A stretch of DNA of 40,895 bases from Candidatus Gastranaerophilales bacterium. GTDB taxonomy: Bacteria > Cyanobacteriota > Vampirovibrionia > Gastranaerophilales > Gastranaerophilaceae. Positions 8,399-21,912 of the stretch are shown in pieces. Within the stretch, counting starts at the first letter, position 1, and each line of letters begins with the position of its first letter. The translations under genes were made by a program, and so were the position numbers. The notes beneath the pieces are model-generated. The model did not search any database. It worked only from the letters and a program-made list of their open reading frames with translations, and had not been told where the DNA came from. The DNA lies in contig CALVAW010000016.1 of the NCBI GenBank assembly GCA_944325655.1, forward strand, positions 1 through 40,895. Direction: 5' to 3'.

Positions 8399-9877
8399 AT
8401 GTTTGAATTTTTTAAAAATATTGCGGATAAAAATGCGTGTCAATTATCGGGTGTTTGTTCAATTCATCCGAGCGTGAATTCTTTGTATGAATTATTATTA
8501 AGCGAAGCAAGAATGTGTGCTTTTTATTTGGTAAAATTGAAAGAATTTAAAATTTTAGACAAAAGCATAGAAAAATTGTTGATAGAAGTATTGTCTATTT
8601 TTTTAATAAATACAAGTTTTAATCAAAAAAAATATTTGGATCTTTTTAAAAAATTAAATTTGTATAAAAATAAAATAAAAGAAAAATATATAGAATATTG
8701 TTCTAAAAATCAATTGCCATGTGAAGTAATTAATAATAATTTTGAAATTAAAGACAACACAACAATAAATGAATTAATAGAATTTTCTCAAAATAATATA
8801 GTTAATCGTCAAAAAAATTGTGATAAAAAGAAATTCAGATTGTTTGAACTTATTACTATTTTTGCAAGATTGTCTGCTATAGATGTTGTTAAAATAAAAA
8901 AATTAGAGCCTGATTTTGATAATTTTGATTATGAAATTATAAGGTTTTTTGCTTTGACAAACGGATATTCCATAAGAGATGAAAAAATTGTAAGAAGAAT
9001 CATGGAATTTTCGGATGTTGCGTCAAAAATCCATGAAAAATTATTTGAAGTTTATGAGCAAAATTATGGCAATAAAGAAAGCGCATCTGTTGTTGTAAGT
9101 CCTATAAAAGGTCATTGTATATTGGTTTCAGGGGACGACTTGGATGAGCTTGATAAAATTTTGAGTAACCTTAAAAACATGAAACTTCAAGGTTTTTTAA
9201 AAGAAGATATTAATGTATATACTAATGGTGCGTTATTTTTAGCACATTTTTATCCTTATTTTAAAAATAATGAGTTTTTAAAAGGACATTACGGAACAGA
9301 CAGTGCAGAATATGATTTTTCAATTTTTCCGGGGTCAATATTGATTACTCAAAATTTTATTCAAAAAATAGACAGTTTATACAGAGGTGAAATATTTTCA
9401 AATAAATTGATTTCTTTTAATAAAGTATTTGATATTGAAAATGAAAATTATAAGCCGGTAATTGAATCTTCGCTTAAGCTCGAGGGATTTTTAAATAATG
9501 ATGAGAAAAAGATAATTAATATAAGCTATGATGCCGGTGATGTTTATAAAATTATAGATGATTTTACCGATAAAGAGGTTGTTATAGTTACCGGTAAAAT
9601 TGATGGAAAAACCCTTAGCATTTATAACAACAAGAAGATTATAAATTTGAATTGTCCTTGTGAAGCCGATATTTTACCGGAGGCAATTAAAAGATTAAAA
9701 GCAAAAAATGTCGAAATTACCTTATTTTTTGCACAATGTAATCTTGTAAGTTTATTTATGGTTTTATCATTATTAAATCAAGATTTAAAAATAGCGCTTG
9801 CAAATTGCCCTCAGTCTCTTATAAATCCTCATGTTATAGAGGCTTTAAAAGATGATTTTATGATTGATATAATTTAA
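8399..9877 (+). CDS. Degenerate hybrid cluster protein (Hcp/prismane) homologue, 492 aa
   Basis: Segments align by eye with hybrid cluster protein (Hcp, hydroxylamine reductase/NO reductase). Residues 14-47 match the N-terminal GVC region. Residues 237-300 match the Hcp block that reads SGHDL, NVYTHGEM, AHGYP, with LVGNYG after it. Residues 309-321 match FPGxILMTTNC. Residues 393-403 match the GGCDG region. Residues 441-492 match the C-terminal block around SWYEQKA and LGPTLPAFLxPNV. The ligand positions differ: D246 for His, A278 for Glu, F320 for Cys, I401 for the persulfide Cys, and FFAQCN for SWYEQK. The frame is intact, so it looks like a conserved pseudoenzyme rather than a decaying gene. 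Its role is unknown. It is shorter than typical Hcp (about 540-550 aa). Confidence 0.7.
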   Translation: MFEFFKNIADKNACQLSGVCSIHPSVNSLYELLLSEARMCAFYLVKLKEFKILDKSIEKLLIEVLSIFLINTSFNQKKYLDLFKKLNLYKNKIKEKYIEYCSKNQLPCEVINNNFEIKDNTTINELIEFSQNNIVNRQKNCDKKKFRLFELITIFARLSAIDVVKIKKLEPDFDNFDYEIIRFFALTNGYSIRDEKIVRRIMEFSDVASKIHEKLFEVYEQNYGNKESASVVVSPIKGHCILVSGDDLDELDKILSNLKNMKLQGFLKEDINVYTNGALFLAHFYPYFKNNEFLKGHYGTDSAEYDFSIFPGSILITQNFIQKIDSLYRGEIFSNKLISFNKVFDIENENYKPVIESSLKLEGFLNNDEKKIINISYDAGDVYKIIDDFTDKEVVIVTGKIDGKTLSIYNNKKIINLNCPCEADILPEAIKRLKAKNVEITLFFAQCNLVSLFMVLSLLNQDLKIALANCPQSLINPHVIEALKDDFMIDII

Positions 9878-9893
9878 TTTATTTTAAATTATA
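9868..9893. terminator. AT-only inverted repeat spanning two convergent stop codons
   Basis: TATAATTTAA (9868-9877) and TTAAATTATA (9884-9893) are perfect 10-bp arms around a 6-nt loop. The left arm contains the stop of the HCP-like gene and the loop/right side the stop of the GH13 gene. It may act as a bidirectional terminator, but with no GC pairs this is uncertain. Confidence 0.35.
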
Positions 9894-12800
9894 AAGGCTT
9901 GCCATATACTTAGTTTGTTTGTTATATTCCATTGGAACATAGAAATTTTCAACGGTTTCTCTAATATCTATCGGACTTCCGTCTTCTGATATAATTGTTT
10001 GGTTTTTTACAACGTATGTTTTGTTGTCATCAATGTATTTTTGTCCGACAAAGATTTTTCTTTTTAATTTTGTTCCTTCTTCCAGAGGACATTGATTTGC
10101 ACTGTCTTTAATCGGAATGCCTCCTAAAGTGTATTGGCGTTGAAAATCGCGAGCGTTATTTGAATTTTCTCTTCTTGAAACGCCGTTATTTGTAATTACG
10201 CTTATAACCCTTGAACCTTTGTCATCGTATTTAAATATGGGCCATAAATCTAAATTTTCTTTTCCGGACGGATTAAAGGGGTTTAATTTATCGATAATTT
10301 TTCTTATAATATCATGATTTCCGTTTATGTCATTAATTTGTAAGTCTTTAGATAAAAACTCTTTATATTCTTTTTCGTCTTTCATTTTTGTTTTTATTAA
10401 TTTAATAACTTCATCGAAGCTTATATTTTTTGCCTGAGCATATTCATTGATTTTTTCTCTGTAATATAAGATTGCTCCGGGGTGGATTCCATCAATCGAG
10501 CTAAGATATTTTAATGAAATTCCAAAGCCGTCTCTTATTGCGCTTAGCCCGTTTTGTTTGTATAAACTCGAGATGGCATTCATTTTGGTGTAATATTGTC
10601 TGTATCCTTCTCTTTCTTTTAAGTTACGCAGAGCTTGATTACGATTTTGTACATAAACATTTTTAGATGAAGTTTCATAGCCGGTTTGAGCGTACTCGGT
10701 TCCGTAATATATAGTAGGAGTACCCATTAGTGCATTCATAACTTCCCAAAGTCCTTCTTGCAATTTCATTGAATTTGCAAGTATTGTATAATGAAAATTC
10801 CATATTTCATCTTCATTTTCAAAACCTGCGTTTTTAAATAAGTCTCTTATGGATATTTCATAAGGGGCATTTCCAAATGCTTCTGCTCTTTTGAAGTTTG
10901 GTCTTGAAGAATAATTTGTTTTACCGTTTATAAGGTTTCTTAAGGAATTTAAAAGTGCTTCTTTTTTTGTAAAATTATTTTCATAAAGTTTATCTATTGT
11001 TTGTTGCATTACCATGCCTACTGCGATTGCTTTTGCCGATATATTTATAAAGTCTGTTCTTCCTGTGAGGTTTTTTGCTATTTCTTTTTGATTGTCTGTT
11101 GCATTTTGCATATTTAGTTTTGAAAATAGTTCCATATCTAAAGGCAGAGTGTGCAAAAGGCGTGGCTTATCGTGGTTATCTGTAAACATGTGGGAAAGTA
11201 TAGCATAATTAGGTTGATTATTTGAAACAAATTCTTCCATTTTATTTTTAAGTTGAATTATGTTTCCTGCATCTAATGATCTGTTTGTACCGTTTTCAGG
11301 GTCGACCCCCAAATATGCGGATAAATTATTGAAATAAGCATCATAATTAGAGCTTGTTGTTGCGCCGATTTTATTTATAAATTCAATTTCTTTTATGTAT
11401 GGGAGTTGATTGCTGTGTTCGTTTTGTTCACCGTACGATAGAGATTCTTTTGCTTTAGCAAGTCTTTTATCAAAAAGTTTTTCAGGCATATTATTTTTTT
11501 TATTAGCAAAAGACCATAGGTCGGTTATTTCTGCAATTACGTACGCAGAAGGATTATATTTTTTGACATTTGAAACAAAATTAATCCAAAAGTCTTCTAC
11601 GCCAGGGATATTTTTATCTCCTTCCCAAATACTTTGCATACTTGTGTTTCCATCTCTCGTACTGTCTAAATCGCCTATGTCTTTAGCTGCATCAAATCTC
11701 CAGTTTAGACCGGCTTTGCCTTGAATTACGATATTTTCTGCGAGTTTAAAGTCTTCTAAATTTATATTTTTTAGTTCGGATTGCATTTTTTGTTTTATTT
11801 TCAAGACATTTGCGCTGTTTATGCCTTTTCTTATTTTTCTGATTACTGTTGCTCTTTCTTCTTCTACGGTGCTTTCATTTGTCGCATTCATAGAAGCAAG
11901 AGATATATTTTTTAGTGCATCAAGATTAATTGTTCCGTTTTCATTGATTGCTTGCGGACACATTGCTGCTATTAAAATATTTTTAATTATTGTAGGAGTA
12001 TATAGTTTTGTTACGTATGTCCTATATTCATTATTTTGTTTGTATTCATCAGGGATGGCTTCATTGATTGTGTTTTGGATAATTGTTTCAAGAGTTTCAA
12101 GGGTGCCTTTTGAAAGAAATTCCTGATTAAATTCAGGTTGAGCGAATATTGCACTCAAATCAGGGTCAGTTTCAATTGATTGTAACGGAAATTCTTCGAT
12201 ATATGTTCTTACTGTTTTATTTTCATCCAGTATAGGTGAGCGCATTGAAGAAATTGAGCTTTTAATTTCTTCATACATTTTTTGCGAGATATCATTTTGT
12301 TTTGCTGTGTCAAATTTTTCAGAATCGCTCATTAAAGCTGTTTTTAAGATTAAATTTGATTGAATTGTTTCAGACCAGAAACTCGCAACTTTATATAGGT
12401 AATTTCTTGCATTAAAGAAACCTTCTATATTAGCTTTTTCATTTGTGGGATTTGACAGGTTCATTTTTATTATGTCTCGATTACCATCCCAGTAATTTGC
12501 GCCTGAAGCTTTTGCTTTTGTCGTTATAATATAATTCGGGAAGGTTAAAAAATCATTTAAATCAGTTATGTCGCTTAAAAGAACAGCTTTTTGTCCTTTG
12601 AATGCTTTTAATTTTTCCTTATCATCGGGTGAAATCTCAAAATAGTAAGGAATTATCGAATCCTGATGTGAAACTATTTCATAATGATCATTAGGTTTTT
12701 TATCGTATGCTTTTATTAATTCATCGGAGTTTTGTTGCTTCTCGCTTGATAGGCGCTTATCAAAAAATTGGATATATGTTGCTTTATGCCTATTGTAATT

Positions 12801-13733
12801 TTTTTGTTGAGGGCTGTTTACTATACGAACTCCTATGTAGTCAAAAGGATTTATTTCATCGTCATAACTTCTGTCCGGCAAAATGCCTAATTTTGGTATG
12901 TCATCAATTTTTAACATATTATAAAAAGGAGACTGCTTACCCCATTTTAAAACATGGTGCACTATCGGAGATTGAATCCCTTGAGATGTGAATGCACCAT
13001 CTGCAACATATCCTTTGCCACGTTTATACAGTTCAAAAATAAATTCTTTGAAATCTTCAATATTTGTGCATTGAAATTGGTTGTTAGGCCAGTATTTGTG
13101 ACTTGATATAGGGTCGTTTCCAATGTCCGGCGTGGATATTATATATCTGTAGCTGTCTAATTCATCTGTATTTTTCAGTAGATATGTAAGTCCTTTTATG
13201 CTTCCGCCAAGTTTGTTGAAATGATTTCGAACGAAATTAGGGTCAATATTTTTTAATGTTCCTTCAGGCGTTAAAACCGCATCTGAATCTATAAAACTGT
13301 GGCGCATAGTACCTGTTTTCGGGGAGATTATGTAATTATTATTTTGCTCAATGAGATTCATTCTTGTGCCATCATTGAGTTTTATTGTTTTGGATTCATC
13401 TGTAATATATCTTGCGGTTTTAGCTTTTTCGTTTACGATTTTGTATCTGTATGCAAAACCTTTTGAAAGTTCACGGAGATTTTCTTGACTCAACTCTAGC
13501 GGTTCATCAGAGTTAAAATTAATTTCCATTATATCTTTATATTGTGGTGTTATATATTGTTTTGTATCTTTGTTTTGTGCCAATATGGCAATTTGAAGAA
13601 CTGCTCTTTCGTTTTTTCTGTCAAAAGGAGGAGCGATGAACTTATAAACAGGTGTATTGTCGGCATGATATGTACCTTTCATGCCTTTAAATTTCAAGTT
13701 GTTTTCTTTTATTTTCTTAATAGATAAATCCAT
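9879..13733 (-). CDS. Giant GH13 alpha-amylase-family protein, 1284 aa
   Basis: This is an alpha-amylase-superfamily enzyme, probably cytoplasmic because it has no signal peptide. An N-terminal beta domain resembling those of branching/pullulanase types spans about 15-150. The four GH13 regions are readable: region I around D245 (YVADGAF), region II with the nucleophile D681 (LNWRFDAAKDIGD), region III with acid/base E735 (YVIAEITDLW), and region IV with D855 (FTDNHDKPR). TPTIYYGTEYAQTGYE follows. Regions I and II are about 435 residues apart, against roughly 80-100 in ordinary GH13 enzymes, so a very large helical insertion sits in the B-domain position. All catalytic residues remain, so it is probably active on alpha-glucan. 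It is last in a four-gene operon; AAAAGGAAAAG is its ribosome site. Confidence 0.8.
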   Translation of the reverse strand: MDLSIKKIKENNLKFKGMKGTYHADNTPVYKFIAPPFDRKNERAVLQIAILAQNKDTKQYITPQYKDIMEINFNSDEPLELSQENLRELSKGFAYRYKIVNEKAKTARYITDESKTIKLNDGTRMNLIEQNNNYIISPKTGTMRHSFIDSDAVLTPEGTLKNIDPNFVRNHFNKLGGSIKGLTYLLKNTDELDSYRYIISTPDIGNDPISSHKYWPNNQFQCTNIEDFKEFIFELYKRGKGYVADGAFTSQGIQSPIVHHVLKWGKQSPFYNMLKIDDIPKLGILPDRSYDDEINPFDYIGVRIVNSPQQKNYNRHKATYIQFFDKRLSSEKQQNSDELIKAYDKKPNDHYEIVSHQDSIIPYYFEISPDDKEKLKAFKGQKAVLLSDITDLNDFLTFPNYIITTKAKASGANYWDGNRDIIKMNLSNPTNEKANIEGFFNARNYLYKVASFWSETIQSNLILKTALMSDSEKFDTAKQNDISQKMYEEIKSSISSMRSPILDENKTVRTYIEEFPLQSIETDPDLSAIFAQPEFNQEFLSKGTLETLETIIQNTINEAIPDEYKQNNEYRTYVTKLYTPTIIKNILIAAMCPQAINENGTINLDALKNISLASMNATNESTVEEERATVIRKIRKGINSANVLKIKQKMQSELKNINLEDFKLAENIVIQGKAGLNWRFDAAKDIGDLDSTRDGNTSMQSIWEGDKNIPGVEDFWINFVSNVKKYNPSAYVIAEITDLWSFANKKNNMPEKLFDKRLAKAKESLSYGEQNEHSNQLPYIKEIEFINKIGATTSSNYDAYFNNLSAYLGVDPENGTNRSLDAGNIIQLKNKMEEFVSNNQPNYAILSHMFTDNHDKPRLLHTLPLDMELFSKLNMQNATDNQKEIAKNLTGRTDFINISAKAIAVGMVMQQTIDKLYENNFTKKEALLNSLRNLINGKTNYSSRPNFKRAEAFGNAPYEISIRDLFKNAGFENEDEIWNFHYTILANSMKLQEGLWEVMNALMGTPTIYYGTEYAQTGYETSSKNVYVQNRNQALRNLKEREGYRQYYTKMNAISSLYKQNGLSAIRDGFGISLKYLSSIDGIHPGAILYYREKINEYAQAKNISFDEVIKLIKTKMKDEKEYKEFLSKDLQINDINGNHDIIRKIIDKLNPFNPSGKENLDLWPIFKYDDKGSRVISVITNNGVSRRENSNNARDFQRQYTLGGIPIKDSANQCPLEEGTKLKRKIFVGQKYIDDNKTYVVKNQTIISEDGSPIDIRETVENFYVPMEYNKQTKYMASLYNLK

Positions 13734-13744
13734 AACTTTTCCTT

Positions 13745-13758
13745 TTATAGTCCTATAA
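13745..13758. repeat. Short palindrome before the giant GH13 gene
   Basis: TTATAG and CTATAA form perfect 6-bp arms with a 2-nt gap, immediately upstream of the ribosome site of the 1284-aa gene. It lies in the only sizeable gap of the operon (52 nt). It could be an internal operator or RNA hairpin; low information content makes chance possible. Confidence 0.25.
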
Positions 13759-13785
13759 TTCCCTTTTGTTTGTTATATTTAACAT

Positions 13786-15672
13786 TTAGTTTAGGTATTT
13801 TTGTTGCATAACATTTTTTGGGTCAGATAATTTTTCAATTTCACTGTTATCAATTTCAAAGACGCATGCTCTTGAAGTACCCAGTTCAGCGGTAACTGTA
13901 CCGTTTTTGTTGTTTTGGAATTTACATTCTTCTCCATATTTAGGCATTAGATTTTTGAATTTTTGTTCCGCTTTTAACCCAGGTATAGTTATTTTTCCGC
14001 CTATGGGTTTATTTACATTTCTGTTACCTATAAATACAAGAGTTTTTCCGTCTTTATGTCTTGCAAATGCAATAATTTCAGGGTTGTTTGTCGGTAGTAT
14101 AATGAATGAACCTTTTGTAATAACGTCTTTAGCGTTTTGCATATTTAATTTTATATCGGAATTTTTGTTAACTTCGTTATATTTATTATCTCTGAGAGAA
14201 AATGCGGTTTTTATAACGTTTTCAATTTCCGGGAATTTGCCTCCGGGTTTTCTTGATTTATTGAAAATATCTATTCTGCCTGTATGAACAGTACATTCAT
14301 GGTTGTTGGTTTCAGTTTCTTTAACGATAGCATGGTCATACGGATATATATAGAAATCGCCTGTTTGTGTGCCATCAATCATATAAGGATTTAATTGCGG
14401 CAGCATTCCTTGCAAAATGCTTGTAAACATTACCCATGGAGCTCCTCCGTATAACATTGGAGAAGAGTCATCATGAGTTGCAAAAGAGCCGATTAAAGAT
14501 TTCGGTTTTCCGATTTCATTGTTTAAATCAATATTTTCTTTGACATAATCATATAATTGTTGGGCTTGTGTCCATTCATTAAAGATATGATATTGACCGT
14601 AGTATGAATCAAAGCCTACTTCAAGCAGTTCTTTTGGTCTGTCGTAAGGCATATTTAATTGAGGTGAAGCATCTTCATGTGTATATGTTTCTGCAAGCCA
14701 AGCAAATTGAGGATCTTTAGCATGAGAATAATTAATTATAACGTTCCAAAATTCAACAGGTTTTGCTCTGCCGACGTCTGCTCTTATACCATCAAAACCA
14801 AGTTCTACGCACATATCTACATATTTTTTATGTAAATCAAGTACAGGAGTGTTTAGTTCACGAGTTTCCTCGTTTTTAAACGGTTTTAACATTCTTATAT
14901 CTTGCCATCCTTGAGGAACTTTTTCTTTGCCGTTTGCATCCACAGCCATCATTTCAGGGTGTTTATTTGCAAAATCAACACTTCCGCAGGACGGTAAATC
15001 TAGCATTGCTTTAATATTACGCTTATGACATTCTTCTAAGAATAGTTTACATTGTGCTTTTGCAACATAAGGGTCATTTTTGTCCATTTTTGTTAATTTT
15101 TTACCGCTTAGTTCAAAATATATTTCTTCTATTCTTTTTTTGTATTTTTCAGGTGGGTTTTCTTCAACAATTTCCGGATCTATTGCAAGAAAATCAGCCG
15201 GTGAATATAATGAGCCTGCCGTTCCCATTGCATTTGTTTTTCCTGTGGGGTGTATAGGAAGTATGTGTAAAGTATTAAAACCTGTATTTTTAATTTCATC
15301 AAGTCTTTCAATAGCATTAATTAAATTTCCGGATTTTTCATCACCTTGTATTAATTCATTGCCGTCTTTGTCTTGAGCGTTCATTGTTCTGATTATTACG
15401 CCAAGTATTTGAGCTTCGTTGTTTAAAAACATTGATTTTAAATTGTTTTTATAATTTTCTATTGTAGTCGGTTTTGAAATTTGGATTGTCGAAGCAACAT
15501 TAGTTGCTAATATTTGTTTTGATTGAGCCAGTACCATTTTTTTTAAAAGAGGGCTATATTGTGTTTTAGAAGGCATATTAACATTAACAACTTGTTTTTT
15601 GCTGTTTTGAGGTCGCATTGGTTGCATTTTCATTGTTTGTGCCAGCATAGGACTAATAAGTGAATTTATCAT
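13786..15672 (-). CDS. GH13 alpha-amylase-family glycosidase/transglycosidase, 628 aa
   Basis: A second GH13 enzyme without signal peptide. The barrel starts near residue 85 (ILGVIIRTMNAQDKDGNE), followed by FNTLHILPIHPTG. Catalytic regions are intact: region II GFDGIRADVGRAKP with nucleophile D299, region III FAWLAETY with E328, and region IV GSFATHDDSSP with H400-D401. Region I is atypical, reading MLDLPSCGSVDF instead of the usual DxVxNH. The N-terminal 75 residues are outside the fold and begin with ISPMLAQ, resembling the N-terminus of the next protein upstream (ISPILQN). Exact activity (hydrolase, transferase or phosphorylase-like) cannot be assigned. It overlaps the 893-aa gene by one base (TAATG), indicating coupled translation. 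Confidence 0.8.
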   Translation of the reverse strand: MINSLISPMLAQTMKMQPMRPQNSKKQVVNVNMPSKTQYSPLLKKMVLAQSKQILATNVASTIQISKPTTIENYKNNLKSMFLNNEAQILGVIIRTMNAQDKDGNELIQGDEKSGNLINAIERLDEIKNTGFNTLHILPIHPTGKTNAMGTAGSLYSPADFLAIDPEIVEENPPEKYKKRIEEIYFELSGKKLTKMDKNDPYVAKAQCKLFLEECHKRNIKAMLDLPSCGSVDFANKHPEMMAVDANGKEKVPQGWQDIRMLKPFKNEETRELNTPVLDLHKKYVDMCVELGFDGIRADVGRAKPVEFWNVIINYSHAKDPQFAWLAETYTHEDASPQLNMPYDRPKELLEVGFDSYYGQYHIFNEWTQAQQLYDYVKENIDLNNEIGKPKSLIGSFATHDDSSPMLYGGAPWVMFTSILQGMLPQLNPYMIDGTQTGDFYIYPYDHAIVKETETNNHECTVHTGRIDIFNKSRKPGGKFPEIENVIKTAFSLRDNKYNEVNKNSDIKLNMQNAKDVITKGSFIILPTNNPEIIAFARHKDGKTLVFIGNRNVNKPIGGKITIPGLKAEQKFKNLMPKYGEECKFQNNKNGTVTAELGTSRACVFEIDNSEIEKLSDPKNVMQQKYLN

Positions 15673-18353
15673 TATTTAGCACCCCCTGTTTTTTTGTTTT
15701 CCGGATACTCTTTTTTTATTTTTCCGAATAACGGTTGAGCTAAAAGTGTTATTGCGACGAGCCCGATTGCCATCGGGGCAAATATTTTCAGCCAACTTTT
15801 GTTATTAAATAATTTTGTTGCGAAATTTTTTATTTGTTCCGAGATACTGCTTGTTTGCAATGTTTTTTCGGTATGTTTACCAAAATCCCTGTTAATTTCT
15901 TTTAATGCTTTAATTATATTTTCTATCTCGGGTATTTCATTCTTTTCTGCTTGGAATGCTTTTGCATTAAATATCGCATTAATTAAATTGTTATAATTTT
16001 CTTTATTATGCATTTCTGCTGCAGTGTTTCTTGTGGCAATGCATCCGTCATATATAATTTTTCTTGCAGCTTCGATACCTTCAGATCCGAACTGTTCAAA
16101 TATACCTTCTTTAACTCGTCTTTCGAAATTAGCACAAATTAGAGCTTTAACTCTTGTGAAATCGATATCTGTTTTTTTGTTTTTCAAATATTTTGTAAGT
16201 GTATTGAATATGTGTTGAGGTTCTTGCTTGCCGCCAAGAATTGCATGGGTTAGTTCGGGAACATCTTTACCTTTTATGATTTCATTAATCCACACATAAT
16301 TATCTTTTTCAATATAAGTTATAAAGTTTTGAAATTCATTTTCTTGTATAAGTTTATTATTGGGACCGAGGATTCTTTTAAGAGTTTCTTTAAGTTTTTC
16401 GGCAGCTTGGTTTCCTTCATTTTTTGTACTTAAATACGTGTTTATTGCCTGTGTTAATTGATCTAGTTTTTCGAAGCATGTTTTGTCATCTTGTGTTACT
16501 GTAAATAATTTCATTAATGTTGAAGTATCAAAAAGTTTTGTCAATGCATCTTCTTGAGCTTTATTTAAACCTTGAAGATTTAATGTTCGAATTGAAGTGC
16601 GCTTGGGAGCATCGGCAATTTCGGTACTGTATTGATCAAATATTTCCATCATCCAAGCTTTGTTATTTGCTTGAATATTATATTTAAAATTATCAAATAA
16701 CGCTGTATTTTTAACAAGAGGAAAATCTTTACCGAAAGCTTCTTCAAGAGCTCTTCTGTAGCTTTCGCTGTCTGTTTTACCTCCTTCGATAAATCTTTGT
16801 GTTATTTCAAAAAATTGGTGCAATTTTTCTTCGTATTCAGTATCTTTACTTATTATTGATAATATTTGTTTTTTTATAAGTTCTTGGGTTGCTTCAACCG
16901 TTTGTGTTTTCATGGTTTTGAGATCATCGTAGTTTTGAATACCAAGTTTTTCAATAAGTTCATTTATTATTCTGTTATATTGTCTTGTAGTTATAGACTC
17001 TGATTTTGAACCTGCAACAGGATTGAGTATGCTTAGGTATGCTTTAATTCTTCCTTTTATTCTTGAAAGTATGTTGCTATTGTAATTTCTTATTGCCTCA
17101 AAGAAGCTTTCGTTGTTTACTTTTATTGATGTAATTATTTTACTTTCTTGTTTTTCTGCAATTCCGGATTCTTTTAAGATTTGTCTTAATCTTTCAAGAG
17201 TTTTTTCTTCTCCAAGACGACTTATTATTGTATTGATTTCTTCTTCGGTGAGTTTTGCTTTTGCAGCACCAACAAGCAGTGAGCTTGCAGAAGGTTTTTC
17301 GGTATTTCTAAGTACTTCTTTTAAACTATCAATGTCAATGGTGCATTTTTGTTCGCGTATTTTTCTTAAAGTTTCCGTAAGATTGTTTGATTTTAATTGT
17401 TCCAGAGGTTTTCTATCATCAGGATTTTTAAATTTATCCAGTATATTATCCAGTTGAAGTAATTTTGCAAGTCTGTCATAAAATGCATCTGTTAATTCTT
17501 TACCTTTGAATTCCGCAAATAATGCTTCCAAATCTTTAACATTGCTTAAGTCTTGTTGCTTTATAAGGTATGCGTTAAGAGCATTTTGATTTGAAAGAAT
17601 TTCGTTTGCTTTTTTAAATTCATGTTCAATAACTGCATTTTCAACTTTAGGTTGAACATAATTTCCTATGAGTGCTGTCATAAGAGGAGTTGCAAAACCT
17701 GCAGTTGCCATCCAGAGCGTTCTGTTTTGAAGAGCTGTTTTTTGTCTTTTTCTGAGCCATTTTTCTTCAGCACTTGGTTCTTCGGGGTTGATACCCATTC
17801 TTTTCATTTCTTTTATTTTTTGTTCTTTTGAATGTAAGCCCGTAGGGATAAATTGGTTATCTAAATATAAATCTTTTTTGTCTCCTTGAGCGCTTATATA
17901 TTTTTCATCTATGGGAAATCCGTGTATAATTCTTGCAGGTAAATTTATGAATATTTTTGGCCATAATGCCATTGACGCAAAGAAAGTTGTTCCGCCTATA
18001 AATTGCATTATAGCTTCTGTTTTTGTTTTTGCGTGAGCTGCCAAGAATGATGCAATAAGAAGTGCTCCGGCTTTCATGCCTAAGTCGTTTATTCTTCCCA
18101 AGTTATTATCATTCATTTTACCGGTTTTAGTCGCTTTGAAGAAATTTTTAACGTCATTAAAGTTGTCTTTTACAGCAGACGCAGTTCTTTTTATCGGACC
18201 TTCTTTTACGAGTTTTGCTTTAGGGTCGTTTGGTTTAACATCATTTGCGTGTTGTTTTAGATTTTCATATATTCTTTCATGATGCAAATTGTTTGGTTTA
18301 TTTCCATTTGTATTTATATTTAATCTGTTTTGCAGGATGGGACTTATAGTCAT
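15672..18353 (-). CDS. Large membrane protein with about 600-residue helical insert, 893 aa
   Basis: I do not recognise this family. Hydrophobic segments lie near residues 93-110 and 115-135 (LLIASFLAAHA and FIGGTTFFASMALWP), near 212-233 (LWMATAGFATPLMTALIG), and close to the C-terminus (IFAPMAIGLVAITLLAQPLF). About 600 charged, helical residues lie between the third and fourth. The hydrophobic framework resembles that of the 333-aa protein encoded just upstream: KTALQNRTLWMATAGFATPL here, against TTALENISKYIVAATGVALG there. The N-terminus starts MTISPILQNRLNIN. One-base TAATG overlaps join it to both neighbours. Its job may be to tether or regulate the GH13 enzymes at the membrane; that is inference from the operon only. 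Confidence 0.6.
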   Translation of the reverse strand: MTISPILQNRLNINTNGNKPNNLHHERIYENLKQHANDVKPNDPKAKLVKEGPIKRTASAVKDNFNDVKNFFKATKTGKMNDNNLGRINDLGMKAGALLIASFLAAHAKTKTEAIMQFIGGTTFFASMALWPKIFINLPARIIHGFPIDEKYISAQGDKKDLYLDNQFIPTGLHSKEQKIKEMKRMGINPEEPSAEEKWLRKRQKTALQNRTLWMATAGFATPLMTALIGNYVQPKVENAVIEHEFKKANEILSNQNALNAYLIKQQDLSNVKDLEALFAEFKGKELTDAFYDRLAKLLQLDNILDKFKNPDDRKPLEQLKSNNLTETLRKIREQKCTIDIDSLKEVLRNTEKPSASSLLVGAAKAKLTEEEINTIISRLGEEKTLERLRQILKESGIAEKQESKIITSIKVNNESFFEAIRNYNSNILSRIKGRIKAYLSILNPVAGSKSESITTRQYNRIINELIEKLGIQNYDDLKTMKTQTVEATQELIKKQILSIISKDTEYEEKLHQFFEITQRFIEGGKTDSESYRRALEEAFGKDFPLVKNTALFDNFKYNIQANNKAWMMEIFDQYSTEIADAPKRTSIRTLNLQGLNKAQEDALTKLFDTSTLMKLFTVTQDDKTCFEKLDQLTQAINTYLSTKNEGNQAAEKLKETLKRILGPNNKLIQENEFQNFITYIEKDNYVWINEIIKGKDVPELTHAILGGKQEPQHIFNTLTKYLKNKKTDIDFTRVKALICANFERRVKEGIFEQFGSEGIEAARKIIYDGCIATRNTAAEMHNKENYNNLINAIFNAKAFQAEKNEIPEIENIIKALKEINRDFGKHTEKTLQTSSISEQIKNFATKLFNNKSWLKIFAPMAIGLVAITLLAQPLFGKIKKEYPENKKTGGAK

Positions 18354-19354
18354 TATGCCACCTCGAATTCTTTTTTGGTATCAACTTTTGATTTCATTGT
18401 ATTTGGTTTAGATTTAAAACCTGCAGTCGGAATCAACCAAGTTAATAAAGTGGCTGCTGCTGAACCTATTAATAGTGCTTTACCGTAATTTTTTGTTATA
18501 AAGTTTCTGTTTTGTCCGTTCCATAATTGCTTAAATCCGTTTTTGAGGGCTGTTAAAATGCTTTTTGGTTTTAATAATTTGATATTTTCAAATGCTTTTT
18601 GAAAACCGAGTGCTACACCTGTGGCTGCAACAATATATTTGCTTATGTTTTCAAGAGCCGTAGTTCTTACTTTTACTTCTCTTATAAGTGGCCAAGCTGT
18701 TTGGTTTGGTGCGTTTTGTTTGGTTTTGTAGCCTGCTTTTTTCAAAATTATATCTTCATAAGCATAAATATTTCCATGCTCCAGTTCTCCCCAGACTGCG
18801 GTTTTATCTTTTCTCGGAAAGTCTGCAGAATCAAAAACACCCGGATATTGTGTTCTGACTAATCCTTTTTCCTGGTTGTTTTCAGGCAGTTCATTTATTT
18901 TATTTAAAAGTTTCCAATCAAGGTTAATACCTGTTGAAGCATATATTCCCAAATGGGCTATCTTTTTTGAAAGCCATTTGCCAAGTCCATATAAGATAAC
19001 TCCTGCTCCCATTCTTTTTGCAAATTTTGCGGCTGCCTTACCGTCCAGTTGGTTAAATGCTTTATTTGAAGCAGCATACAAACCTATAAGCATTCCGCTT
19101 CCTATAATGTAGGGAACCATGCCGAGTGATAAATATTCATAAAAATTACTGTTTTTAGAGCCGGCAAAACCTTTCGGAAAATATGTAAAAATATCGTTTG
19201 TGAGTTTGTGTGCTCCGGCTTTGATATCCATAAAAGGACCTTGTTTTGGAATATGAGGCTCTGTTTTATATATTTTTTCTTTTTTGTCTTCTTTTGATAC
19301 GTAATACCCCGTTCTTGGAAGATTGTCAAAGTTTAAACCTGAAATTTGTTGCAT
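18353..19354 (-). CDS. Multi-pass membrane protein, first gene of the GH13 operon, 333 aa
   Basis: No family was recognised. Four hydrophobic segments can be seen: YLSLGMVPYIIGSGMLIGLYA, the MGAGVILYGLG region, SKYIVAATGVALGF, and KALLIGSAAATLLTWLIPTA. A loop of about 100 polar residues lies between the second and third. The arrangement parallels the 893-aa protein. I start at ATG 19354 because GGGG lies 5-8 nt upstream; an in-frame TTG at 19369 is less likely. It is the promoter-proximal gene of a four-gene minus-strand operon with the two GH13 enzymes. The intergenic region upstream (19355-19575) is shared with the divergent STAND-TPR gene and has no clear promoter for this side. Confidence 0.6.
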   Translation of the reverse strand: MQQISGLNFDNLPRTGYYVSKEDKKEKIYKTEPHIPKQGPFMDIKAGAHKLTNDIFTYFPKGFAGSKNSNFYEYLSLGMVPYIIGSGMLIGLYAASNKAFNQLDGKAAAKFAKRMGAGVILYGLGKWLSKKIAHLGIYASTGINLDWKLLNKINELPENNQEKGLVRTQYPGVFDSADFPRKDKTAVWGELEHGNIYAYEDIILKKAGYKTKQNAPNQTAWPLIREVKVRTTALENISKYIVAATGVALGFQKAFENIKLLKPKSILTALKNGFKQLWNGQNRNFITKNYGKALLIGSAAATLLTWLIPTAGFKSKPNTMKSKVDTKKEFEVA

Positions 19355-19539: not shown

Positions 19540-19569
19540 TTGCAAATAATGTTAAAAATTATGTACAAT
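19540..19569 (+). promoter_or_regulatory. Promoter of the leaderless STAND-TPR gene
   Basis: TTGCAA (19540-19545) and TACAAT (19564-19569) are separated by 18 nt. The ATG at 19576 begins 6 nt after the -10, with no ribosome site. A perfect 14-nt AT palindrome (TTTATTATAATAAA, 19504-19517) lies upstream; its role is unknown. Confidence 0.5.
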
Positions 19570-19575
19570 AATACT

Positions 19576-21912
19576 ATGACTCAAGGCTTTTTTCAATTTA
19601 ACAATTCTATTATAAATGAAATTCTAAATTTTGTCATATCTACTTTCGACTTACTCTACATGGATGGTCCCAAGGGTTCATCAAAAAGCGAAACAATAAA
19701 CAAAATTATACCCCGTCTTGAGGAAGATAACCTTGTTTTTCAGCATTTTTGTTTTGAAAATTCGGTAATAGATGATTTTTTGTTGAATTTTTATGATGCG
19801 TTAAGAAATTTTTCAATTGCCCAAAAAATTTCTTTAAAAAAGTTTACAGAAGGTAATTTTAAAGAAAAAGTCAGTCATTATTTTAAGACCATTAACGCAA
19901 ATTGCGTAATTGTGGTTGAAAATTTTGAGAAAGTAGATAAAAATATTGAAATTGTTGATTTTCTTTCTCATCTTGCCGGATATGAAAATGTAAAAATAAT
20001 CATTGTTTCAAGAAATGCAGGGGCTAATTTATTCAGATTTAAAAAAATTAGGGTTAAAACACTCGAGATAGAGCAAATAGATAAGAAAGATTTTAAATCA
20101 AGACTTTCTGTTTTGTCTGAACAATTGGATGATGATTTGCAGGAGAATTTTTACGAAATAACCGAAGGACTTGAATTATATTTAAAGATGGCTGTTAAAT
20201 ATTCGGGTGTTACCGGTATTTCAATAAAAGATTTGTTAAATGAATATGAAAGAAAAAATATAAGTTCAAGAATAAATTTTGAAGAATTTATGGTGTCTAA
20301 GTTTGTTTCATTGACTCCCGGCATATATCAGGGTTTGTTTAAAATTTTATGCACTTTGTCACATCCTGTGAGTATGACTTTTTTAAGTGAATATAAATTG
20401 GGAGACATTTCTCATATTGAATATTTATCGAAAAATTTTTTAATAAGTTTTTTTAAAGATGAAATATATGTAAAAGATTATTTTAAGCAATATATAGTTA
20501 AAACATTCTCCATACAAGAAAAAATGTCTTATTATAAAAACTTAATTGAAATTTATGAAAATGAATTGACAAAAAGTCCTAAAGACAGACTTTTAAGACT
20601 TTCAAGGGAGTCAATAAGAAAAGAAATAGAATATTTTAATTCCCTTATTCCGGCTATAAATTCTCCCGATAAAAGTCAAAAGGCATTTTCATATTTGGGA
20701 ATTACTTCTTCTTCCTGGCATGATGAGAAGTTGCATCAAAAGTCGAAGTTGTCGGAAAAACTCAACAAAATTAAGGAGAGAAAAAAATTTTTATCTGAGG
20801 AAGATAATAATCTTTTGATTAAAAAAAGACTTGAAGATTTGGGTCAAAAATCTTTAATAGATGAAAGCAAAGAGAAAAACAGACTTTTTATAATTAATCT
20901 AATAAACAGTTCACGAGATTTTTCAAAACAATATCAATATCAAGATGCTTTATCGGAATTAAAAAGAGCTTATGAGGTTGATTATAACGGAGAATTCAGA
21001 ATAGAGATTTTATCTCTTGAAGCAAAAAATTATGAATATTTAAATGAGTATAAAATAGCTCAAAATTATTATGAAATTGCTTTGGATATTGCATTAAAAA
21101 ATGGCGATTCGAGAGTTTGCGAGCTTGAATATTCTATCGCCAATTGTTTAAAAAATCTTTATAAAATAGATGATGCGAAAGAAAGATTTAAATCTATAGC
21201 AAGTAATGAAAATAATTCAAAAGGATATAGAGCAAGGGCCTATATAGAAATAGCTCAAATTGAAGAGGCAGATTCAAAATTAAAAGAAGCAATCAGAAAC
21301 TATGACAGAGCGCTTGAGCTTTCTTTGGGAAAAAATAAGGAGCTTACTGCAAAAATATACTATAAACTTGGTGTTTTGTACGATGAAAATCAAGATATAG
21401 AAAATGCAATAAAATATTACAGAAAAAATTATACTACAAGCTCTGAAAGGAATGAGAACAAATATTATTCAGCTTCGCTTACAAATCTTGCATTGATTTA
21501 TATGGATATGGAAAATTATAAAGAAGCAATTGATTTTTTGAAGCTTGCTCTTTTATACGACAGCGAAGTCAATGATTATGAGAACATGTATTTTTCTCAA
21601 AAAGAGCTTGCAAAATTGTATGCTAAAAGTGATGAAATAACGGCAATAGGTTATTTTAAGCAGGCGTTGTCATCTGCTCAAAAGTTGAATGATAGTTTTA
21701 AAACTGCTCTTGTTTATTTTGAAGCAGGTGAATTTCATTATGACAGAGGTAATGATGAAAAAGCACTTGTTAACTTTTTATGTGCTAAAGAAGCTCTTAA
21801 AAATACTTCTGATAATGAAAATATATCCAGAGTTAATCAAAGAATAAAAGATATTAAAATTCGTCTTGACAGTATTACATATAATTCAATAATGGAAAAG
21901 TATGATAAGTGA
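19576..21912 (+). CDS. STAND-like NTPase with C-terminal TPR repeats, 778 aa
   Basis: The N-terminal half looks like a STAND-type P-loop NTPase. A modified Walker A is at 31-38 (GPKGSSKS, with Ser where Gly precedes the Lys). A Walker B-like strand is CVIVVENFEKV (about 115), and a sensor-like IIIVSRN follows. A helical winged-helix-like region spans about 230-340. From about 440 onward there are tandem TPR-like repeats, for example ALSELKRAYEVDYNGEF, AIRNYDRALELSLGKN and AIDFLKLALLYDSE. Such proteins usually act as signalling switches or transcription regulators with TPR sensing. I chose ATG 19576 over upstream in-frame starts because the promoter -10 lies at 19564-19569. It overlaps rsmG by 11 nt. 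The partner or ligand is unknown. Confidence 0.7.
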   Translation: MTQGFFQFNNSIINEILNFVISTFDLLYMDGPKGSSKSETINKIIPRLEEDNLVFQHFCFENSVIDDFLLNFYDALRNFSIAQKISLKKFTEGNFKEKVSHYFKTINANCVIVVENFEKVDKNIEIVDFLSHLAGYENVKIIIVSRNAGANLFRFKKIRVKTLEIEQIDKKDFKSRLSVLSEQLDDDLQENFYEITEGLELYLKMAVKYSGVTGISIKDLLNEYERKNISSRINFEEFMVSKFVSLTPGIYQGLFKILCTLSHPVSMTFLSEYKLGDISHIEYLSKNFLISFFKDEIYVKDYFKQYIVKTFSIQEKMSYYKNLIEIYENELTKSPKDRLLRLSRESIRKEIEYFNSLIPAINSPDKSQKAFSYLGITSSSWHDEKLHQKSKLSEKLNKIKERKKFLSEEDNNLLIKKRLEDLGQKSLIDESKEKNRLFIINLINSSRDFSKQYQYQDALSELKRAYEVDYNGEFRIEILSLEAKNYEYLNEYKIAQNYYEIALDIALKNGDSRVCELEYSIANCLKNLYKIDDAKERFKSIASNENNSKGYRARAYIEIAQIEEADSKLKEAIRNYDRALELSLGKNKELTAKIYYKLGVLYDENQDIENAIKYYRKNYTTSSERNENKYYSASLTNLALIYMDMENYKEAIDFLKLALLYDSEVNDYENMYFSQKELAKLYAKSDEITAIGYFKQALSSAQKLNDSFKTALVYFEAGEFHYDRGNDEKALVNFLCAKEALKNTSDNENISRVNQRIKDIKIRLDSITYNSIMEKYDK

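Follow-up and report, generated by a model that had tools for sequence, protein, structure and literature searches.

Glycogen metabolism in bacteria is usually pictured as a soluble process, and two carbohydrate-active enzymes encoded directly behind two membrane proteins raise the question of whether some bacteria might handle such a polymer at the membrane instead. The locus lies in a 40,895-nucleotide stretch of Candidatus Gastranaerophilales DNA (contig CALVAW010000016.1), called the window below, whose open reading frame list holds four consecutive genes on the minus strand between 9879 and 19354, in the order M1, M2, GHs, GHb (Table 1). A first-pass annotation had read them as one operon, and the operon proved real, with all four frames at that place and strand and their contiguity kept in relatives. 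For M1 the listing begins at TTG 19369, and ATG 19354 was preferred, being the next ATG and agreeing with the family alignment. The first three genes had been said to be joined by one-base TAATG overlaps; both junctions, M1/M2 and M2/GHs, do read TAATG with an overlap of one base, and a purine-rich stretch precedes each of them. GHs and GHb are separated by 52 nt, in which no minus-strand terminator-like site was found. The overlaps suggest translational coupling and not stoichiometry, so the fixed protein ratios once derived from them were an over-reading.

Table 1. Coordinates of the operon, its junctions, its flanking genes and the sites of a recurring N-terminal motif (plain numbers refer to the window)
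Feature	Position	Strand	Description
M1	18353-19354	-	Membrane protein, 333 aa from ATG 19354; in no curated family
M2	15672-18353	-	Membrane protein, 893 aa; in no curated family
GHs	13786-15672	-	GH13 enzyme, 628 aa; signal peptide not apparent
GHb	9879-13733	-	GH13-like enzyme, 1284 aa
TAATG overlap, M1 stop / M2 start	18353-18357	-	Sequence GGTGGCATAATGACT
TAATG overlap, M2 stop / GHs start	15672-15676	-	Sequence GGGGGTGCTAAATAATGATA
Gene beyond M1	19540-21912	+	790-aa protein with TPR repeats
Gene beyond GHb	8399-9877	+	492-aa protein, prismane / hydroxylamine reductase match
F-x-G/S/A motif sites	GHb residues 13-17 (window near 13690); M1 N-termini, most genera; L219:7350; L104:2-60; L221:8275-9942		

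Scanned as single sequences, all four proteins stayed below the Pfam and NCBIfam cut-offs, and because of this the set looks anonymous. The flanking genes were also inspected. The TPR protein, divergent from M1, has a P-loop-like GSSKSE-type start (GPKGSSKSE) and stays next to M1, with an rsmG-like gene after it, in genera g1, g18 and g22. A 1104-aa gene near the operon in g18 and g22 turned out to be RNA polymerase beta and is unrelated. The 492-aa protein, convergent with GHb, matched its family at E 1.8e-43 and scored 149 bits against an NCBIfam equivalog cut-off of 367, as a diverged relative of the hybrid-cluster protein.

M1 and M2 were contiguous in all 80 database loci, with a spacing of -16 to +2 nt, and GHs followed M2 directly in 78 of them, the remaining two showing M1-M2 only; GHb stood behind GHs in 29 of the 80. 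The order is thus conserved in Gastranaerophilales, as the first-pass annotation needed it to be. Most of these loci were labelled Candidatus Gastranaerophilales, Melainabacteria or 'uncultured bacterium' and a few otherwise (e.g. Fusobacterium sp. CAG:439, Heliobacteriaceae), and the four nearest database relatives of M1, with 79-84% identity, all carried the label Candidatus Gastranaerophilales. Across a sample of the phylum, M1 was present in 173 of 386 genomes, every one from Gastranaerophilales except G361, which belongs to another order of the same class. The M1-M2-GHs core was found in Gastranaerophilales families f1, f3, f4, f6 and f7, and in f5 an M2-GHs pair was found at a contig end.

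The distribution of GHb was looser. It matched at E <= 0.001 in 110 of the 117 order genomes, and since a few of these matches are generic or fragmentary, the true count is about 105. GHb lay immediately after GHs in f1 (three genera), f3, f5 and f7, and away from the core in most genera, including most of f1, though those genomes retain it; the neighbours of relocated GHb had no recognisable glucan link. With the linked form known from four families and GHb lying beside M1 in G361, the linked state is probably ancestral. A GHs match was absent from six order genomes (G002, G009, G011, G015, G022 and G024), all six of which also lacked a credible GHb, and M1 was absent from all three of them that were tested. 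These results showed that the conserved unit is the three-gene core M1-M2-GHs, whose contiguity is not due to chance, and that GHb stands outside this invariant core; the four-gene unit first proposed therefore holds for its first three genes, while its last is often elsewhere.

Both enzymes qualify as GH13 by sequence similarity together with the catalytic Asp, Glu and Asp of regions II, III and IV, and the intact catalytic residues credited to them beforehand were invariant in our alignments; their placement within GH13 is by profile match only. In GHs these residues are R297/D299/E328/H400-D402, set in near-fixed motifs: M(L/I)D(L/M)PSCxSxD in region I, GIRADVARAKP in region II, WLAE(T/S)Y in region III and THDD in region IV. 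The GHs profile matched 4gkl (E 5.9e-23), 1gju (8.9e-21), 3dhu (7.3e-18) and GlgE (1e-14). GHs has no N-H in region I, a trait of 1gju and GlgE that sets it apart from 4gkl and 3dhu and appears to lean towards the transfer type. The same genome encodes a GHs paralogue on contig C1 (L060:8496-10160), 33% identical, which retains the PSC and GIRADV motifs and has a hydrophobic N-terminus resembling a signal peptide, suggesting a GH13 group with a putative exported branch and a membrane-coupled branch.

The residues R679/D681/E735/N853-D855 of GHb are likewise intact, with D681, E735 and D855 unchanged across the nine members aligned. It carries the motifs DGAFTSQ, RFDAAKD and NHDKP, the latter two found in nearly all copies, and approximately 400 residues separate DGAFTSQ from RFDAAKD, that is, conserved region I from region II. 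The GHb profile was nearest to neopullulanase-type GH13 (2wc7, E 4.7e-15; 1sma; 1jib). PF00128 was reached by three of the nine family members, with a best E of 2.3e-16; the GHb of the window by itself gave no Pfam match over cut-off. At the N-terminus, F15-x-G17 is invariant. An export signal was seen in neither GHs nor GHb.

M1 and M2 are distant paralogues, aligned by hhalign over 167 columns with a probability of 89.6 and E 1.9e-6. Family-averaged hydropathy showed strong hydrophobic segments in M1 near residues 88 and 307 and weaker ones near 129 and 247, and in M2 three strong segments and one weak; the peaks are modest, and it is from hydropathy only that transmembrane character and topology are read. 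M2 consists of a conserved N-terminal membrane domain (about 78-230), a variable helical middle and a conserved C-terminal hydrophobic segment. Basic tails after the last segments of both proteins suggest a cytoplasmic C-terminus. No Pfam match was obtained among 20 M1 orthologues, and no curated transporter or membrane-synthase family of Pfam or NCBIfam was reached over cut-off by either protein. AlphaFold modelled both proteins as mostly helical, at moderate confidence (pLDDT 71 and 74); a Foldseek comparison with the PDB gave no hit at E <= 0.001 and helical matches at E > 0.1 only, and the best VIA-align Z for M1, 5.5, is in the range of common helical arrangements. No convincing fold could be assigned in this way, from which a new fold does not follow. 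The only PHROGs match, with an E of 0.006, was to a family of 57 residues whose function is unknown. Of the description as two multi-pass membrane proteins without recognised family, the second part stood in Pfam, NCBIfam and the PDB fold comparison, including the absence of any known transporter or synthase family over cut-off, and 'multi-pass' is a reading of hydropathy only.

The best evidence of GHs working at the membrane protein came from G361. As found in this single-contig assembly, the one genome from which the fusion is known, the gene after M1 encodes a single 1030-aa protein that comprises M2 and GHs: an M2-like membrane domain (profile positions 115-228, E about 1e-33), then at 493-511 the C-terminal hydrophobic segment, the stretch SKTSRRRKEG after it, and a GHs domain at 523-1030. 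M1 lies directly upstream of the fusion gene, and GHb is divergent and adjoins M1. The fusion indicates that the enzyme can share one polypeptide with the membrane protein, so that the membrane attachment first supposed for the system gained a physical link in one genome of another order; tethering of GHs is strongly suggested by this predicted protein.

We examined the glucan genes in and around the locus. No glgA, glgB, glgC or glgP is present in the operon, in agreement with the claim that it is not a glycogen operon, and the genome does carry GlgA (contig C48), an alpha-glucan phosphorylase (C8) and a GlgX-like enzyme (C13) elsewhere, together with a GH13 protein with a signal-peptide-like start on C8. 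It also encodes a GT5 starch-synthase domain protein of 886 aa whose N-terminus carries a hydrophobic segment (contig C26, L064:526-3186). Such membrane-anchored GT5 proteins, mostly 870-1000 aa with a GGLG motif and an N-terminal hydrophobic segment, were found in many order genomes, with a patchy distribution in a pairwise search. In G006 (L221:5310-13087) two anchored GT5 genes flank an atypical GlgC-like gene, and this GT5-GlgC-GT5 cluster may be a second glucan locus linked to the membrane. In family f7, and there only, the gene directly behind GHb encodes a GH13+CBM48 protein (GlgB/TreZ-like), and in g18 relatives a GlgC-like gene precedes M1 at a distance of about 7 kb. Among the f1 genera is a group in which the core comes directly after kdsD-, kdsC-, queD- and uppP-like genes in the same direction. 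Given these differing neighbourhoods, glucan genes in some and kdsD/kdsC/queD/uppP-like genes in others, context alone leaves the polymer unsettled.

GHb, M1 and some of the anchored GT5 and GlgC-like proteins have in common a short N-terminal F-x-G/S/A motif (ISFTG, VSFKG, INFSA), perhaps a sorting tag specific to the lineage. When neighbour genes were tested for such a tag in general, 320 clusters showed no clear enrichment of an N-terminal F-x-G.

From the computed gene order, motifs, fusion, paralogy and co-occurrence we infer complex formation, sidedness, substrate and reaction as follows, and we give an even chance to the reading that the locus is a membrane-tethered module for remodelling alpha-glucan (glycogen or maltodextrin). 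The paralogues M1 and M2 would probably assemble into a heteromeric scaffold within the cytoplasmic membrane, which would hold GHs at the cytoplasmic face; that side is favoured because GHs has no signal peptide and a basic stretch follows the last hydrophobic segment in M2 and in the fusion. GHs, as a putatively retaining GH13 enzyme, would probably transfer or release short, maltosyl-sized units on alpha-1,4-glucan chains, judging from its nearest relatives, and the neopullulanase-like GHb would probably act on that polymer where its chains are short or branched. Between them the two enzymes would shape or mobilise glycogen or maltodextrin at the membrane, alongside soluble GlgA and phosphorylase of the ordinary kind and, in many relatives, a GlgA-like synthase anchored in the membrane. 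Contiguity of the core, the M2-GHs fusion, the paralogy of M1 and M2 and the joint absence of GHs, a credible GHb and, in the genomes tested, M1 support this reading, as do the conserved active-site motifs, the alpha-glucan enzymes among the nearest solved relatives and the glucan genes nearby or in the genome. Against it stand the occurrence of the fusion in one genome, the GHb of most genera, unlinked and among neighbours with no recognisable glucan link, the patchy anchored GT5, the modest hydropathy peaks, and the kdsD/kdsC/queD/uppP-like genes ahead of the core in several genera, which would also fit an envelope role.

Other explanations were weighed against tethered remodelling. An M1-M2 passage could import maltodextrins or export alpha-glucan, with GHs and GHb processing the sugar at its cytoplasmic mouth, which would account for the coupling of glucan enzymes to a dedicated membrane protein pair and for the genome's putative secreted GH13 enzymes, as these would generate external maltodextrins. 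However, M1 and M2 reach no transporter family over cut-off, have no credible transporter fold and carry few and modest hydrophobic segments; we consider such transport unlikely, a new transporter being still compatible with these findings. A module that makes or trims a cell-envelope alpha-glucan or glycolipid, and not storage glycogen, would suit the f1 genera with the core directly behind the kdsD/kdsC/queD/uppP-like genes, and it has a parallel in mycobacteria, where part of the GlgE-made glucan goes to the capsule (PMC11046441). That neighbourhood is missing, however, in the window's genus and in most families, and since queD and the panD-like gene on the other side are unrelated, it may be a mere long gene run; with no export signal in GHs or GHb either, an envelope role seems distinctly improbable. 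The frequent location of GHb elsewhere in the genome would be expected if cytosolic maltodextrin enzymes merely shared a transcript with functionally unrelated membrane proteins, but the M2-GHs fusion, the order-wide near-zero spacing and the shared absence would be difficult to account for if no functional link existed, which makes a chance association very improbable.

Tethered remodelling thus remained our preferred reading, and the operon suggests that these bacteria may handle glycogen at the membrane. The first-pass annotation is partly supported. Glycogen storage potential has been mentioned for Gastranaerophilales (PMC5877343, PMC4040986, PMC3787301). Published work on this operon was not found in a literature search of partial coverage, which is weak evidence. 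A wider scheme is possible, though doubtful: in a lineage-specific system parallel to the soluble glycogen pathway, M1 and M2 would serve to nucleate a glycogen body, or to hold it, at the cytoplasmic membrane, GHs and GHb would prime or trim it there, and atypical GlgC and anchored GlgA-like synthases would build it. The literature search found no arrangement matching such a membrane-held glycogen body. A conserved operon by which GH13 enzymes are tied to a dedicated membrane pair would, already by itself, point to glycogen being spatially organised in these non-photosynthetic relatives of cyanobacteria. An abundant gut order has for the most part retained the operon, which was also seen in one genome from a different order of the class. 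The operon brings together two membrane protein families without prior name and two unusual GH13 groups.

Compared with known systems, GHs resembles GlgE in being a GH13 enzyme with an aligned catalytic region, in KPVxFW after the nucleophile and in the lack of N-H in region I. The Asn after the catalytic Asp in GlgE (GH13_3) is the maltose-1-phosphate site; this residue is N in GlgE (RVDN) and V in GHs (RADV), in nearly all copies. GHs also sits beside two membrane proteins and not beside glgB, which is absent from the window operon and from the core surroundings in most genera, whereas glgE and glgB share one operon (PMC11046441). Lacking both the post-nucleophile Asn and the glgB linkage, GHs was rejected as a GlgE. 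The Thermotoga maltodextrin glycosyltransferase (1gju) shares with GHs a PRT stretch near the barrel N-terminus and a region I without N-H; as solved it has no membrane partner, and its His three residues past the nucleophile is R in GHs. The 'alpha-amylase' 4gkl, which we take to be Thermotoga neapolitana AmyB, and 3dhu, the best and third profile matches, share the D-x5-P-x2-FW motif with GHs, but both have N-H in region I and are single soluble enzymes. Neopullulanase and cyclomaltodextrinase (2wc7, 1sma, 1jib) are like GHb in region I, including DG(A/V)F, and in a (V)LKxG..SP stretch, while GHb has no N-H there, is about twice as long and has regions I and II about 400 residues apart. With classical glycogen operons (glgBXCAP), none of whose genes stands in this operon, the locus likely shares its polymer, and the genome has GlgA, phosphorylase and GlgX-like genes in common with them; what sets it apart is its two membrane proteins.
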